Source: Candidatus Methanohalarchaeum thermophilum (GTDB lineage: Archaea; Halobacteriota; Methanonatronarchaeia; Methanonatronarchaeales; Methanonatronarchaeaceae). From it: a stretch of 64,000 bases of DNA. The notes under the pieces were generated by a model. That model was not told the DNA's origin, ran no database searches, and saw nothing but the letters and a program-made list of their open reading frames with translations. The DNA lies in contig MSDW01000001.1 of NCBI GenBank assembly GCA_001914405.1, positions 992,001-1,056,000 of the forward strand. Direction: 5' to 3'. Position numbers and translations under genes: made by a program. Position 1 is the first letter of the stretch. Every line of letters starts with the position of its first letter. This document shows, piece after piece, positions 40,470 through 62,587 of this stretch.

Positions 40470-41117
40470 ATGTTTTCGAACCTCCTTTCAGTATTGTTTG
40501 GCGATCCATTTGCAGTAATGAATACGGTCGGTTTGATCGCATTCGCCTTTGTTGGGTCATCGAAGGCAATTAGGGAAGAATTCGATCTACTTGGAATTAC
40601 TATTGTTGGAGTGGCAATGGCATTCGTTGGAGGAATGACACGCGATCTCCTTCTGATGCGGGTTCCATTAGCACTCCGATCTCCCATTGAAATTATCCTG
40701 GGGCTGTTTGGGGTGTGTTTGGCGATCACACTGAGCCTCGTTTTCACGGAACCGGAGACTCATCCCATCACGATTGTCTCGGATGCCATTGGCCTCGCTG
40801 CCTTTGCTACAACTGGTGCTATTGTCGCAACTGAGGCGGGTATCTCCGTTTTTGGTATCATTGCGATTGCTACGATCAACGCCGTCGGTGGTGGTTCTTT
40901 TGCGGATATTCTTCTTGACCGGTCTCCTTTTATTCTCTTCGAAGATTTCTATGCCAGTTGTGCCGTCTTAGGTGGGAGTGCATACTGGATAGTAGGAACG
41001 TTAAGTGCCGCTGAAGGCACTGGTGCGGTGGTGTGTGCGACTGTGACCGTTGTGACTCGGTTGGTTGCGGTTACTTTCAACTTGAATCTTCCGACAGTAC
41101 AGGATATAAGGCGGTGA
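40470..41117 (+). CDS. TRIC/UPF0126-family membrane channel, foreign-looking
   Basis: A 215-residue protein with seven hydrophobic segments in two repeats, each containing the glycine motif: GGMTRDLLL in the first and GGGSFADILL in the second. This is the UPF0126 (YadS/TRIC) family of trimeric cation channels. Two counted 60-base lines of the gene are 53% and 47% G+C, well above neighbouring genes, and codon use favours C/G endings. Both point to acquisition, perhaps from haloarchaea. The gene is complete. It adjoins a truncated secreted-protein gene on the left and element remnants on the right. Confidence 0.8.
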   Translation: MFSNLLSVLFGDPFAVMNTVGLIAFAFVGSSKAIREEFDLLGITIVGVAMAFVGGMTRDLLLMRVPLALRSPIEIILGLFGVCLAITLSLVFTEPETHPITIVSDAIGLAAFATTGAIVATEAGISVFGIIAIATINAVGGGSFADILLDRSPFILFEDFYASCAVLGGSAYWIVGTLSAAEGTGAVVCATVTVVTRLVAVTFNLNLPTVQDIRR

Positions 41118-41807: not shown

Positions 41808-41939
41808 TTTGGTCGCTAAGACCTCTCTCTTTAGGAAGAGGATACTTTGGCCTCTGATTGGCTCTAAAAATTTAATAAGTAAAATATTTAGATTCTTAAT
41901 ACGCTAGGAATGAAATACGATGCTTAAACGGGAAGATGT

Positions 41940-42257
41940 TAGGTTTTTTCTCTCTGATATCATTTAGTGTTTTGTAAGAAGTATAGAAAGAATTTGTTGA
42001 ATGAGGAGATTTTTGATGTGTTGGACAAGGAATCAGCAGGAGATTATATTTATATTCTTTTTAGAGCAAAGCTGACAATTAATCTTTTTAAAACGATAAA
42101 TTCGGTAGGAGGGTGCAAAGAGTAGAATTTTGAGAAAGAACTTTTCAGAATTGAGAAAAGAGGCAAATTCTCTATTGTTTCCAGCATATTTCTTAGCGGC
42201 TGCTGAGGAGGTTACACTTGACCAATTGAAAGAGTATTTGAGGAGTCAAGAATGAAA
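41940..42257 (+). pseudogene. tnpA: tnpA (IS200-like Y1 transposase) remnant
   Basis: Only the C-terminus is clear: a TTG-started stretch RKNFSELRKEANSLLFPAYF, then LAAAEEVTLDQLKEYLRSQE and stop (about 42130-42257), which corresponds to the family's PAYFVA...LKEYIENQ ending. Upstream bases hold broken traces. The HUH and tyrosine motifs were not recovered, so identification rests on the C-terminus and on position before tnpB. Confidence 0.45.
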
Positions 42258-42556
42258 AATACGGTTTAAAAGAGGAATAGTTAATCTTACAAGGATTAAG
42301 GAAGAAATTCTTAATGAAGAATATGAAAACCTGCAGAAGTATCTTCAAAGTGGTGAAGATGTCGAATTGCATTCTGCTAACAAACAATAAGCAAAAGGAT
42401 ACTATGACAAAATCAAGGATGAGAATGAGTATTCTTTCTCAATTTGGAAGGATTTGATAGATGTCTAGGAATGTGAATCTGATGTTTGTGTTTATTTTGT
42501 TGGGATCTCTGTAGCTAGTAGATATGTTGATTTGAAGGTTCCTGTTAATATTCATA
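42258..42556 (+). pseudogene. tnpB: tnpB 5' part, interrupted
   Basis: Reads [20 protein letters not shown] and [19 protein letters not shown], then YSFSIWKDLIDV and RYVDLKVPVNIH, the N-terminal part of a haloarchaeal-type TnpB with internal stops. Reading breaks at about 42556 where G+C-rich sequence begins; the protein resumes at 44008. Confidence 0.6.
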
Positions 42557-42980
42557 GCGGTAACAGCGCGGAAACCCACCCGTTCACGGGTGGGAGGAGG
42601 CGCGTACACTCCGTGCGACAACCCACCGACTGCGACAAGGCCCATCCCTCAACACTTTTGAACTACTAAGCCTATATATGATATATGGAGAAGCGGCGTA
42701 CTGTTCCCGTGAAACTTGATGTAGACAGTACCGACGCCGCACTCCTTGAAGACACCGTAGACGAGTTTCTGTGGGCGGTTAACTACGTGACACGCCATGC
42801 TTTCCAAGGCGAATATGTCACCACAAGCAAAACCACGCTCCACGACGACACCTACGAGGACGTGCGCGACGGGACGGCGTTGCACAGCAACCATGTCCAA
42901 GCCGTAGCGCGGAGTCCCCTTCCTCAACGAGCGAACGAAGGGAGCGAGTAGGGAGGGGAGGAGCGCGTTCGTATTGGTTA
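42557..42980 (+). mobile_element. G+C-rich haloarchaeal-type element, internal deletion of tnpB
   Basis: Starts with the hairpin AACCCACCCGTTCACGGGTGGG (about 42578-42599). It carries a tnpB N-terminal fragment (42685-42951, [20 protein letters not shown], ending SSNHVQAV-like) that runs directly into a right-end-like sequence (GCGGAGTCCCCTTCC...GGGAGGGGAGGAGCGCG). So the middle and C-terminus of tnpB are deleted and the gene start is joined to the element end. Composition is far from that of the host. The fragment would encode about 88 residues without catalytic parts. Confidence 0.6.
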
Positions 42981-44007
42981 CAAACACCAGCTTATAAGTA
43001 GCCTACAGATCACATTGAATATGTGGCAGACGACTACGTGCGTCGAACGGCAATCACCCGCCTCTCGGTAGATGGTGAGCAACGCGAGTTGCTCGAGGAT
43101 ACCATCTCCGAGTGGAAGCGTGGGTGCCAACTCGCCACCGACATGGCGTGGGGCAAGTGCAACGCCAAGAGTGACGTACAACCCCTCGCCTACGACACCG
43201 TGCGCGAGGAAACCAACCTCGGTAGTCAGCACGCAATTCTCGCCACTCACCAAGCCGCACAAGCCATCACCGGCTGTATCGAACGCCGGTCCAAAGGCAA
43301 GGAGGTGAGCAAGCCCACCTTCACTGCACCCACGGTGAAATACGACACCCGGACCATGACGCTGTTCGATGATGATACGGTGTCTCTCTCAACAACGGAG
43401 AGTCGCGTCCGGTGCGAACTTGCTCTCCCCGACGCCGACGATGGCTACCAACGGCAGTACATCGACTCCGACGAGTGGAGCGTCACGGAAAGTACACTCA
43501 CCGCCCGCGACGGCGACTACTTCTTGCACATCGGTTTCCGCCGACACAAGAACGACACCGAACGGAACACCGCCGAGGACGGAACGGTCCTTGGGGTTGA
43601 CCTCGGTATCGAAAATCTCGCCGTCACCAGTACCGCCTACTTCTTCAGCGGGCGGGAGCTAACCCACGACCTCCGCGAGTTCGAGAAGGTACGCGCCGGA
43701 CTCCAACAGACAGGCACGCGAAGCGCCCACCGGACACTCGAACAGTCGAGTGGCCGTGAGCTTCGGTACGTCCGCGACGTACTCCATCGAGCGTCGAACG
43801 CCATCGTAGAGGAAGCACTCCGATACGGGTGCGACGTGATAGCGTTCGAGGACTTGACCGATATTCGTGACCGCACTGGTGCGTCGTGGGGTCACAAGTG
43901 GGCGTTCAACCGCTTGTACGCGTACGTCGAATACAAGGCCGCCGAGTATGGTATCGACGTACGCGTACAAGCGGTTGAAAGCCCACAGCTTTAGCCGTGG
44001 GTTAGCT
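42981..44007 (+). mobile_element. tnpB: G+C-rich haloarchaeal-type IS605-like element with truncated tnpB
   Basis: Contains tnpB (43023-43994), 323 residues. It has the N-terminal RRTAITRLSVDGEQRELLED, the first RuvC block TVLGVDLGIENLAVTS and the second catalytic Glu in CDVIAFEDLTDIRDR. The frame ends at VQAVESPQL inside the right-end hairpin AAGCCCACAGCTTTAGCCGTGGGTT (43972-43996). The zinc ribbon and third RuvC Asp are missing, so it cannot cut DNA. One counted 60-base line is 62% G+C. The open frame is intact to the deletion point, indicating recent arrival. It could still bind guide RNA. Confidence 0.75.
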
Positions 44008-44753
44008 TACATGGAGATTAAAGAAAATTGGGAAATTTGTGGATCCAAACTATTTAGAAAGAATAGCGGATTTTTTATCAATATCACGGTCGAGATAGGA
44101 GTTGAAGAGGCAGGGATACGATGGTGTTCTCGGAATCGACCTCGGGTTGAGAAACTCAGTAGTGTCGGTGGCACTACCTAACCAGAGGGTTGATTTTCGG
44201 GGACAGGAAGTAAAGCAGACACGATCTAAATACTTCTATCTCAGGTGACAATCCGAGACTGGTAGAGGATGGCACCGAAGAGTACAACAAGGTTTGGGAC
44301 AAGTTGCCTAAATTAACGATGGAGATCATGAATTTTGCCGAAGAAAATGAATTAGTAGTTGCTGTTGGTGATTTGTTGGGGATTCAAGATGGTGACAAAG
44401 GAAGAAAGTTGAATCGAAAACTGCACCGATTCCCAAACTATTCGTTTAGGCAAATGCTGGAATACAAGTGTAGAAAAAGTGGAATTAAATATATTGAGGT
44501 CGATGTAGCATATACAAGCCAGGGATGTTCTAGATGTGGAGAATTTGGGGAAAGAAATAAAGGGGGAGTTCAAATGTGAAAATCGTAGTCTTGAAATTAA
44601 TGCTGATGTGAACGGTGCCAGAAACATAGTTAGTCGGGCATTTGGCAAGTCTGAGATAAGATCTCTGGTAAGTGCAGAGGGTTCTATGACTGAGCCCAAA
44701 GCCCTGAGCGTTGATGCAACCTCTAAAACCTCTTCAGAGGTGATAAGTTGCTG
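44008..44753 (+). pseudogene. tnpB: tnpB 3' part of interrupted element J
   Basis: Continues the tnpB broken at 42556: EIKENWEICGSKLFRKNSGF, FINITVE, then (shifted) VLGIDLGLRNSVVSVAL, then ENELVVAVGDLLGIQDGDKG, RKLNRKLHRFPNYSFRQMLE, YIEVDVAYTSQGCSRCGE and (shifted again) EINADVNGARNIVSRAFGKS. Several frameshifts. The zinc ribbon and catalytic Asp are still visible. It is followed by the right end at 44761-44816. Confidence 0.75.
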
Positions 44754-44812
44754 AGCAATATGAGAACCCCTAGCTTTGGCTGAAAGCATCTCGGTTTATG
44801 GAGAAGAGGATA

Positions 44813-45493
44813 TTACGTGATGTGATTTAGGTTTTCTATTATCTTTGAAGAAGCAAAGAATGGGCCTATTATTATGTAACCGGTTAATAGTCCTAGTATT
44901 ATTGACATGAAAATTCCAAAGTAGTTCCCGGTCAAAAATACTGGAAAGGCCATTAGTATTCCTAGGGGCCAAGATACGCGGTCATCGAATTTTGGGTATT
45001 TTATTTTGCTGACCATTAGTGTAGATAGTATTAAAAATAATGTAGTTGTTAATATAGTATTTATTGTATTACTGAATAAAACAAGGTATATTGATAGAAG
45101 TAAGCCTGCAGAGGTAGTTGGAAGTCCTTTAAATCCTTTTTCGTTTGGATTTTTTGTATTGAATCTAGCTAATCTTAATATTGCAGCTATTAAGAAAATT
45201 GATGATATTAGTAAGAAGTAATTGTTTTTTGTTATCTTCCAGCCGAATAACGCTGTTACAACGCCGAAAGAAACGAGATCTGCCATTGAATCCAATTCTA
45301 TACCAAATTTGGCTTCTTTTCTATTTGAGATTTTCCTTGCTATTAATCCATCTATTCCATCAAAAATTCCTGAGAGGAGAATAAATTTTGCTGCTAGTAT
45401 GTAATTTTCTCTGGTTAAGAATGTGATAGCTATGAAACCAGATGTTAGATTTAATAAAGATGCAATGTCCGGTAGGGCTATTTCTCTATACAT
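44813..45493 (-). CDS. pssA: CDP-archaeol--serine O-archaetidyltransferase (phosphatidylserine synthase type)
   Basis: A 226-residue integral membrane CDP-alcohol phosphotransferase. The catalytic pattern is DGIDGLIAR...GIELDSMAD (D45, D48, R53, D68, D72) and about eight hydrophobic segments follow. It would make archaetidylserine from CDP-archaeol and serine. It is the last gene of a reverse-strand operon, five bases after the decarboxylase gene. The trio with archaeosortase matches the set needed for lipid attachment of surface proteins in Haloferax. Its 3' end abuts the right end of element J. Confidence 0.88.
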   Translation of the reverse strand: MYREIALPDIASLLNLTSGFIAITFLTRENYILAAKFILLSGIFDGIDGLIARKISNRKEAKFGIELDSMADLVSFGVVTALFGWKITKNNYFLLISSIFLIAAILRLARFNTKNPNEKGFKGLPTTSAGLLLSIYLVLFSNTINTILTTTLFLILSTLMVSKIKYPKFDDRVSWPLGILMAFPVFLTGNYFGIFMSIILGLLTGYIIIGPFFASSKIIENLNHIT

Positions 45494-45497
45494 CTGC

Positions 45498-46112
45498 CTA
45501 TTTTTCGACTAATTTTGTCTTTCCGGCTTTTATCTTTTCTCCTTCTTTTATGGAAAGGTCTTCTAGAGAATATTTTTCTGGTAACAGAAGATTTACTCTT
45601 GAACCAAAGGATATGAACCCAATTTTCTGTCCTTTCGCTAACTGATCACCTTTAGAACAATACATGAAGATTCTCCGTGCTATGAATCCGGCTATTAGTT
45701 CTATGGAATAGATATTGTTGGAATTGTCTCTTACTTTTGTTATATTTTTTTCGTTTTTATCAGATTCTTTTTTAAAAGCTGGTATTTTTTTACCCTTTTT
45801 ATGTCTAACAGAAATAACTTCTCCTTTTAGTGGAGATCTAACTGCATGTACATTTAATATGCTTAAAAAGATGCTTATCTTTAATTTATTATTTTTTGTT
45901 TCCTTGATCTCTATGACTTTTCCGTCTGCAGGTGAAATTAATCCTTTTTGATTTAAATCACTGGTTCTATCTGGGTCTCTAAAGAAAAATATAAATAAGG
46001 CTGTCATAGCGATTGAGGCCAAAAAAATGATTTCAAGGTTTAAGAGGTAAAGTAAGACATTAATTACAACTGATCCTAGAATCCATTTATATCCTGGTTT
46101 AGCTATATTCAA
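45498..46112 (-). CDS. pssD: Archaetidylserine decarboxylase
   Basis: A 204-residue phosphatidylserine-decarboxylase-related protein that makes archaetidylethanolamine. Two hydrophobic segments near the N-terminus anchor it. Landmarks are SPADGKVIEI, SIFLSILNVHAVRSPLKGEV (His), ELIAGFIARRI and the self-cleavage site FISFGSRVNLLLP, whose Gly-Ser becomes the pyruvoyl cofactor. Short form like archaeal and proteobacterial Psd-like enzymes. It overlaps the archaeosortase stop by four bases. Confidence 0.88.
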   Translation of the reverse strand: MNIAKPGYKWILGSVVINVLLYLLNLEIIFLASIAMTALFIFFFRDPDRTSDLNQKGLISPADGKVIEIKETKNNKLKISIFLSILNVHAVRSPLKGEVISVRHKKGKKIPAFKKESDKNEKNITKVRDNSNNIYSIELIAGFIARRIFMYCSKGDQLAKGQKIGFISFGSRVNLLLPEKYSLEDLSIKEGEKIKAGKTKLVEK

Positions 46113-60125: not shown

Positions 60126-61355
60126 TTATTCCCTCCTTGGATCGGAGATCTTTCCTTTTATCCCGGAATAGGCTGCGGTTTCGGGTGAGGATAGGTATAC
60201 TTCTGCTTCTGTACTACCCATTCTACCTTGAAAGTTTCTATTAGTTGTCGATATAGCTCGTTCTCCCGGTGCCAAAATACCCATATGTGTGCCTGGGCAT
60301 GGCCCACACCCTGGATTACAGACTGTTGCACCGGCATTGATAAAGGTCTGAATAACTCCTTCTTCTATAGCTTTCTCATACACACTCTTTGATGCTGGAA
60401 AAACAAGGAACCTCGTTTGGTCACTAACTTCATTTCCCTCTAATACATCGGCTGCTCTCTTTAGATCTTCAAATCTCCCGTTAGTACACGAACCTAGAAC
60501 CACTTGATCAATTTCTTTTCCTTCTACTTCACCTATGTCACTGACATTATCAACCTGATGCGGAACGGCAATTTGAGGTGATAACTCGCTCACATCTAAG
60601 TTAATATTTTCTATGTAATCTGCTTCCTCGTCTGAACTTAAATTAGTAGATGTTCCAGTGTATTCTTCTACTTTTTGATCTGGTTCGACTATACCCGTTT
60701 TAGCTCCTACCTCTATAGCCATATTGCATAAAGTAGCTCTAGATGCTATAGACATATCACGAATGGTTGAACCCCTAAATTCTAAAGCTTTATATATAGC
60801 TCCATCAGCTCCAATTTCACCGCATAGCTTTAGAATAACATCTTTAGCGCTTACATTTTCTGGTAATTCACCATTCACATTAATTTTTATGCTTTCAGGT
60901 ACTTTAAACCAGAGTTCACCAGTTGCAAAAGCTGCTCCCATGTCTGTGGAGCCAACTCCGGTTGCAAAAGCTCCTAGAGCCCCGTAAGTACATGTATGTG
61001 AATCTGCACCTATTATTACCTTACCAGGATCAACATGGTTTTCTAGCATTAGTTGATGGCAGATTCCTTCACCTACATCATACAACTTAATCCCATACTC
61101 ACTTGCAAAACTTCTCATCTTTTGATGTAATTCCGAAGCCCCCTCACTCTTGCTTGGAGAAATATGGTCAATAACTAAAGCTAATTTCTCGGGATTTTCA
61201 ACATCCATATCCATCTCTTCAAAAGCTCTGATTGCTAAAGGAGCTGTACCATCTTGTGCCATAGCAAAGTCAACTTCAACGGATACTATATCACCAGATT
61301 TCACTTCACTTCCGGTTTTATTGCTAAATATTTTTTCTACTATAGTTTTTTCCAA
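60126..61355 (-). CDS. Aconitase-type hydro-lyase, large subunit (LeuC fold)
   Basis: A 409-residue 4Fe-4S hydro-lyase. The cluster cysteines are in [10 protein letters not shown] and [10 protein letters not shown]; other landmarks are [30 protein letters not shown] and the C-terminal [12 protein letters not shown]. The two-subunit form is shared by isopropylmalate isomerase, homoaconitase and archaeal aconitase, so sequence alone does not fix the substrate. The operon suggests citrate. It overlaps the upstream synthase gene by 16 bases. Confidence 0.8.
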
Positions 61356-62587
61356 AGTTCATCTACCTCCAGATTAAAATAATCATCCATCATTTCTACC
61401 AGTTCTTCGTCTAATATACATGAATCTCTTTTTCCTTTCTCGTAGATCTCTTGTATCTGCTTGTAAATTTTATTTATTCTTTGATCATTTTTATTAACTT
61501 GGATATCAGCTTCTATTTTATCTAAAATCTCATTAACTTTACTAGCTATTACTTCTTTACCCGAGGAGTCTCCTACCATTAGTTTTCTCTCTGCACCAAC
61601 TTTTTCAGGGGGATACGGTTCGTAAGTCATCGGGTTCTTCAAAACGCCATCAGTGTGGATTCCGCTCTCGTGGGCAAAGACATTTTTACCTACTATTGCC
61701 TTGTTGTTTGGTACATGGTATTCAGCGCTTTCTTCAAAAAATTCGGCAAATTCCTTAAGATAACTTAGATCGTATTTTTCTATTCCAACTCTATCTTCTA
61801 AAAACAATAGTATCTTTTCGAGTTCTGCTACACCAGCTCTTTCTCCTAGACCCATAAACGTTAGGTTACCCCAATTAGCTCCGTGCCAGAAACCTGATAG
61901 AACATTAGCTACTCCCAGTCCATAATCATCGTGTATATGTAGTTCAATATCTTTAGCACCCATATCCCTTAATTTTTCAACAATATCGGGAACTGAGTAT
62001 GGATCTGCGCCTTCAAAGGGTATACCAAAGTTTAGAGTATCACAGACTCTGATTATGGCTTCCGGAGATATAGATAAGATCTCTTCAATTAATGGAAACG
62101 CAAATTCATTCAAACTTGATCTTGTGAGATCCTCTATATGACACCTTGGTTTTAATCCGTGATCAACAACTTCTTGGATTACATCTAGGTAATGTTGTCT
62201 AGCTTCCTCATAGTCTTCAAAGCCAATTTTATCGAATAAATGAGTATCTGAAACAGAAACCAATACACCAGTTTCGTTTATTCTCTCGAAGTCATTTAAT
62301 AATTCCACATCTTTTTTAGCTGCTCTAATCCAGCCAGTGACCTCTGGTTTATCGTAACCTAGATCTAACATCTTTTTTGTAACTTGTCTGTCTCTATCAT
62401 TATATAAAAAATTCTCAACCTTTTCAATACCTATCTTATGAAGGTATTTGTATATTTCAAGTTTGTCTTTGCTTTTAATAACTACTCCAGGCATTTGGGC
62501 TCCTTCTCTCAATGTACCGTCGCTCAACTTAATCTCTCTGTCGTTTGGGATCTCTACCTCTGGTAGGTCTTCATATTTTCTGAACAT
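61340..62587 (-). CDS. Re-citrate synthase-like enzyme (homocitrate/isopropylmalate synthase superfamily)
   Basis: A 415-residue DRE-TIM barrel enzyme. Residues 21-33 read [13 protein letters not shown], an unusual form of the family's D-x-TLRDG motif. [11 protein letters not shown] (58-68), PEVTGWIRA (81-89), [13 protein letters not shown] (about 106-118), [14 protein letters not shown] and HIHDDYG (217-223) match what I recall of Clostridium kluyveri-type Re-citrate synthases rather than AksA, CimA or LeuA. It would condense acetyl-CoA and oxaloacetate to citrate. As the first gene of the operon it sets up citrate, isocitrate and 2-oxoglutarate formation. Homocitrate synthase is the main alternative. 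Confidence 0.7.

Follow-up and report, generated by a model that had tools for sequence, protein, structure and literature searches.

The question raised by this locus is how a G+C-rich block came to lie inside a broken tnpB gene of a low-G+C archaeal chromosome. The window, meaning the whole 64-kb stretch of DNA that was analysed (G000:C1:992001-1056000), belongs to a genome of 2.14 Mb in 4 contigs that encodes MCR alpha, identifying the host as a methanogen, and carries two pyrrolysyl-tRNA synthetase (PylS) genes scoring above the family cut-off. The possession of two PylRS genes is unusual, with just two organisms listed, including Ca. Methanohalarchaeum thermophilum HMET1 (PMC9071458). MCR, two PylRS, haloarchaeal DNA and low G+C together fit Ca. 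Methanohalarchaeum thermophilum, a salt-lake methanogen, and the "methanogen-like" host of the first-pass annotation is, put more sharply, an MCR-bearing methanogen. The locus is very probably a three-layer mobile-element record in this hyperhalophilic methanogen, in which an element K lies within a resident element J and a fragment M replaces the middle of K.

The resident layer J is a decayed IS200/IS605-type tnpA-tnpB element at about 41817-44816, split at 42555/44011. Its 5' part (41817-42555, + strand) comprises the left-end hairpin region, a decayed Y1 tnpA (~41960-42250) and the start of tnpB, and aligns with J452 and other J copies. The 3' part (44011-44816, +) comprises the frameshifted remainder of tnpB and the right-end region, which is 65-66% identical at the DNA level to other J copies and gives matches to Cas12f1-like_TNB (PF07282). 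On either side of the insert the window copy is interrupted by several stops and frameshifts, making it a pseudogene, and the membership of J in the IS200/IS605 family, with a Y1 tnpA followed by tnpB, was established on the intact J452 (C1:451505-452740), in which a 130-aa Y1 transposase gene overlaps a 345-aa TnpB gene (profile scores of 137.5 bits for Y1_Tnp PF01797 and 83.2 bits for Cas12f1-like_TNB). At least four further J copies are present in the host genome. Copies at 54-77% protein identity were confined to this genome among the 41 searched, the best matches elsewhere reaching 35-37%, which suggests a long history of J in this genome. In a FastTree phylogeny of 126 TnpBs, for which local supports only were computed, J groups with the other TnpBs of the host.

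The break of the tnpB reading, which had been placed at about 42556 with resumption at about 44008, is real, and the exact joints lie a few bases off, at 42555/42556 and 44010/44011. The reading halts at ...PVNI(H) and picks up again as MEIKENWEIC. With 42556-44010 removed, the J flanks read PVNIHMEIKENWEICGSKLFRKN, aligned to PVKIGREIKDSWELCESKLFRKK in the intact J452, and the alignment runs gap-free through the joint in the window J and four other J copies (...GTTCCTGTTAATATTCAT to the left, ATGGAGATTAAAGAAAATTGG... to the right). The flanks are thus rejoined with neither duplication nor loss, and comparison of the in silico joined flanks with the J copies demonstrated that both tnpB halves form one gene in J relatives.

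The intervening 1.45 kb is indeed G+C-rich, as had been stated, at 58.6% for 42556-44010 versus 35.9% for the whole window. This insert is K, a TnpB-only haloarchaeal element situated directly 3' of the target motif TTCAT (42551-42555, +) without target duplication, and TCAT likewise precedes the well-preserved haloarchaeal K copies. The left 349 nt of K (42556-42904, +, K positions 1-349), containing the left-end hairpin and the tnpB start at 42685, are 99.2% identical to c1 and 97.4% to c2, two copies on the same chromosome, and 94.8% to a copy in genome G133. On the far side, a K tnpB segment covering the RuvC-II region (43836-43961, +) is identical to both c1 and c2 over 126/126 nt, and so is the right end (43976-44010, +, ...CCGTGGGTTAGCTTAC) over 35/35 nt; the block terminates in ...GGGTTAGCTTAC. 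The window K has two derived bases in common with c1, besides two private substitutions, and K position 121 is the single site conflicting with a sister relationship of the two. The shared derived bases suggest that K was probably copied inside the lineage of this genome.

The copies c1 and c2 (C1:644771 and C1:851155) are intact 1390-bp elements with 99.2% mutual identity and the same ends as the window K, each encoding a 414-aa TnpB as the sole gene. Both are flanked by ordinary chromosomal genes in DNA of 30-38% G+C; by ORF inspection, the neighbours of c1 include an argB-like kinase and a tgt-type gene, and a methyltransferase-type gene lies close to c2. The c1 TnpB, a protein with RuvC and a zinc-ribbon region, scores 172.7 bits with NF040570 (cut-off 100) and 81.9 bits with PF07282; no such TnpB is left in the window copy. 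The ends of K (TCAT followed by AGCGG...GCTTAC) recur in the three host copies and about 20 haloarchaeal copies, with one TCAC variant in haloarchaea, and folding against shuffled sequences revealed subterminal hairpins at either end (left z = -2.8, right z = -2.5). K accordingly follows the rule of TnpB-only (IS1341-type) members of the IS200/IS605 family, having fixed ends, a position 3' of a short target and no target-site duplication. No Rfam RNA family, omega RNA included, was matched around intact K, M and J at E <= 0.01.

The closest K was found in G133, a 1.9-Mb genome of the same phylum (96.6% over 1390 bp), which carries it at G133:C70:11500-16500 (L162) together with a second K at 86%. 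An MCR search of G133 detected none, and the searches of G010 and G020 were likewise negative, so that lack of MCR alone cannot separate haloarchaea from incomplete class-mates. The closest named relative of K is that of Halovenus aranensis (89%). The search of the G+C-rich block against haloarchaeal genomes gave abundant relatives, and all named best relatives in the searches made were haloarchaeal; for the K TnpB, 80/80 named records among the matches listed were haloarchaeal. In the TnpB tree, K falls within a clade made up of 32 non-host rows and the two own copies of the host, and this nesting in an otherwise haloarchaeal clade indicates haloarchaeal descent.

The claim that the block holds two haloarchaeal-type tnpB elements held in part: portions of two elements are present, and a pair of adjacent intact elements was ruled out, as the insert is a damaged K-M-K mosaic in which the middle of K has been replaced by M from 42904 to about 43853. 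The M fragment (42904-43853, +) comprises the left-end region and most of tnpB with RuvC-I and RuvC-II, and lacks the TCAAC target and the first ~8 nt. It is identical at 949 of 950 nt (1 mismatch, 99.9%) to a TnpB element on the Halapricum desulfuricans plasmid pHSR-Bgl01 (NZ_CP064790.1, CDS 60234-61490), which originates from Lake Baskunchak, while M copies on other plasmids reach at most ~91% identity. The pHSR-Bgl01 element is full-length, retains both ends and encodes a 418-aa TnpB, whereas the window M is 5'-clipped and 3'-truncated. The M clade in the TnpB tree is haloarchaeal.

The two joints of M differ in kind. The M-to-K crossover falls in an 18-nt stretch common to the M and K tnpB genes (GTGATAGCGTTCGAGGAC, 43836-43853, +), beyond which the window tracks K exactly up to 43961. 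From the crossover start onward K and M agree at 66/75 nt, against 29/60 upstream, placing the switch at the edge of their most similar part. At the left joint, CCAAGCCG meets TAGCGCGG with about 1 nt in common. TCAAC stands immediately left of 21/23 other M copies, the remaining two bearing one-base variants, and neither this motif nor a complete left end of M was found at the window joint. A clean insertion of M at its left end was ruled out by the true left end as mapped in the other copies.

Further damage is seen in the 3' portion of the block. A 24-nt inverted copy of 43905-43928 at 43956-43979 (+) forms a hairpin with perfect arms, and ~280 nt of K are missing relative to the intact copies. 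The resulting long, near-perfect hairpin (43890-43995) folds at z = -12.2 versus shuffles; Rfam miRNA matches at 43897-43987 were dismissed as chance matches to it. The sole reasonably long ORF of the block is a fused M-K TnpB of 323 aa (43023-43994, +), which keeps RuvC-I and RuvC-II, has lost the zinc ribbon and RuvC-III, and falls below the NCBIfam TnpB cut-off. J, K and M are inactive at this site, and intact K survives elsewhere in the chromosome.

The order of events is J first, K into J second and M into K third, in line with the earlier proposal that the resident element came first and the haloarchaeal DNA later, and at least two successive haloarchaeal contributions were made, namely K and then M inside K. 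The distances agree with this order, K copies being ~1-3% apart and M 0.1% from its plasmid relative. With the resident IS200/IS605-type J (tnpA-tnpB) in place, K inserted precisely 3' of TTCAT in the J tnpB, as expected for single-strand "peel-and-paste", presumably mobilised in trans by a Y1 TnpA. Subsequently ~950 bp of a haloarchaeal M tnpB element would have replaced the middle of K, probably from an incoming plasmid DNA fragment that recombined at one end through tnpB similarity and joined at the other with near-zero homology. A template switch may have inverted the short piece and deleted most of the 3' third of K; these last two steps are unordered relative to each other.

Since IS200/IS605 transposition is exact, the missing TCAAC and ~8 nt imply that M either recombined into K or transposed and was then trimmed at both joints, and recombination is preferred as the likelier of these two routes. 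It is tentatively proposed that haloarchaeal plasmid DNA entered Methanohalarchaeum recently and was incorporated into its chromosome through short-homology recombination without transposition. Homology-facilitated illegitimate recombination is known from bacterial transformation, and the M scar resembles it in combining a homologous junction with a ~1-nt junction and in having foreign DNA take the place of local sequence; unlike the bacterial examples, the M case would be read from a single archaeal scar. That M instead transposed cleanly into K within the methanogen, with later deletions at the left joint and between the tnpB genes on the right leaving the fragment, is rather unlikely. Such a history would suit the same orientation of M and K, a left joint only ~8 nt inside the true left end of M, nearer than chance suggests, and a right joint at tnpB sequence common to K and M. 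However, the joint is without TCAAC, and the sole two occurrences of this motif in c1, at K positions 94 and 1019, are remote from position 349, where the joint lies; no full-length M was found elsewhere in the host genome; and such a history calls for two or three independent events.

Recombination within the methanogen also has to be weighed against an origin of the mosaic elsewhere. Both outer K ends are intact, so a K-M-K unit that had arisen in a haloarchaeon or on plasmid DNA could have been mobilised in trans and entered J as one transposing unit; this is improbable, as no such mosaic was present among the matches from 394 genomes of the phylum and 72,556 plasmids or at the K and M loci examined, and the two derived bases common to the window K and c1 point to local copying of K. 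An assembly or amplification chimera, in which haloarchaeal reads from the enrichment were fused into a methanogen contig, is more improbable still. Amplification is known to produce inverted copies with deletions as artefacts, M is 99.9% identical to the sequence of a cultured haloarchaeon, and other haloarchaea are present in Ca. Methanohalarchaeum enrichment cultures (PMC5852551), given which a chimera may stay in consideration for the M part only. Against it, each of the three K loci shows exact element ends set in methanogen sequence, the window K carries private substitutions, the ~1 nt common to both sides of the left K-M joint is an overlap that an assembler would not use, and the assembly contains a single archaeal 16S gene. 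Vertical inheritance of the G+C-rich block, or its movement from methanogen to haloarchaea, could draw on analyses placing Methanonatronarchaeia near Halobacteria, a position in dispute (PMC7599335, PMC13082222), but is exceedingly improbable: K is nested in a large haloarchaeal radiation, 56-59% G+C stands within a 36% window, K and M were absent from the two class-mates searched (one of the same family and one of the same class), and M is near-identical to one haloarchaeal plasmid. The transfer ran from haloarchaea to the methanogen, the one direction demonstrated; the first-pass annotation was right about transfer and overstated it as exchange.

Within the host genome as a whole, a profile search for the TnpB C-terminal domain (PF07282) gave 89 matches. 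Many of these lie in broken frames, and the TnpB load is unusually heavy for a methanogen genome as small as 2.14 Mb. Among the best 30 of the 89 matches, the two K copies alone are rich in G+C, at 56%, the remainder having 34-42%; recent haloarchaeal arrivals are a minor share of a large resident TnpB load. No near plasmid match was found for the remainder of the 64-kb window. Just upstream of J, a glycine-transporter-like gene (PF03458, two repeats; 40470-41117, +) has ~50% G+C versus 30-35% around it, and may possibly be another import. Downstream of J, CDP-alcohol phosphatidyltransferase and phosphatidylserine decarboxylase genes lie next to each other (44813-46112, -) as an aminophospholipid synthesis pair.

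Haloarchaeal TnpB-only IS200/IS605 (IS1341-type) elements have been described with their sot/omega RNAs in Halobacterium salinarum (PMC12558985). K and M are like these elements in encoding a TnpB family protein between short hairpin ends with no internal tnpA, and in their fixed ends, which follow a short target motif without target duplication; unlike them, K and M sit in a low-G+C methanogen chromosome and their window copies are broken. Horizontal transfer of IS200/IS605 elements is an already known kind of event, of which this is a well-resolved case, its value lying in a named near-identical source, ordered layers and a recombination scar. No prior report of the K/M insertion in J was found in the literature searched, which did not extend to the 2017 genome paper.

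The locus records a recent crossing of DNA between two distant archaeal groups, haloarchaea and a methanogen. It is disputed whether Methanonatronarchaeia share haloarchaeal ancestry or acquired halophily on their own (PMC7599335, PMC13082222), and gene trees can be confounded by gene flow between the two groups; this scar, for which a near-identical plasmid source can be named, reveals such flow as recent and gives its direction. Mobile-element genes can supply the homology by which foreign DNA lodges in a distant genome. If M entered by recombination of plasmid DNA, its scar would be a direct trace of a methanogen taking up DNA from a co-living haloarchaeon.
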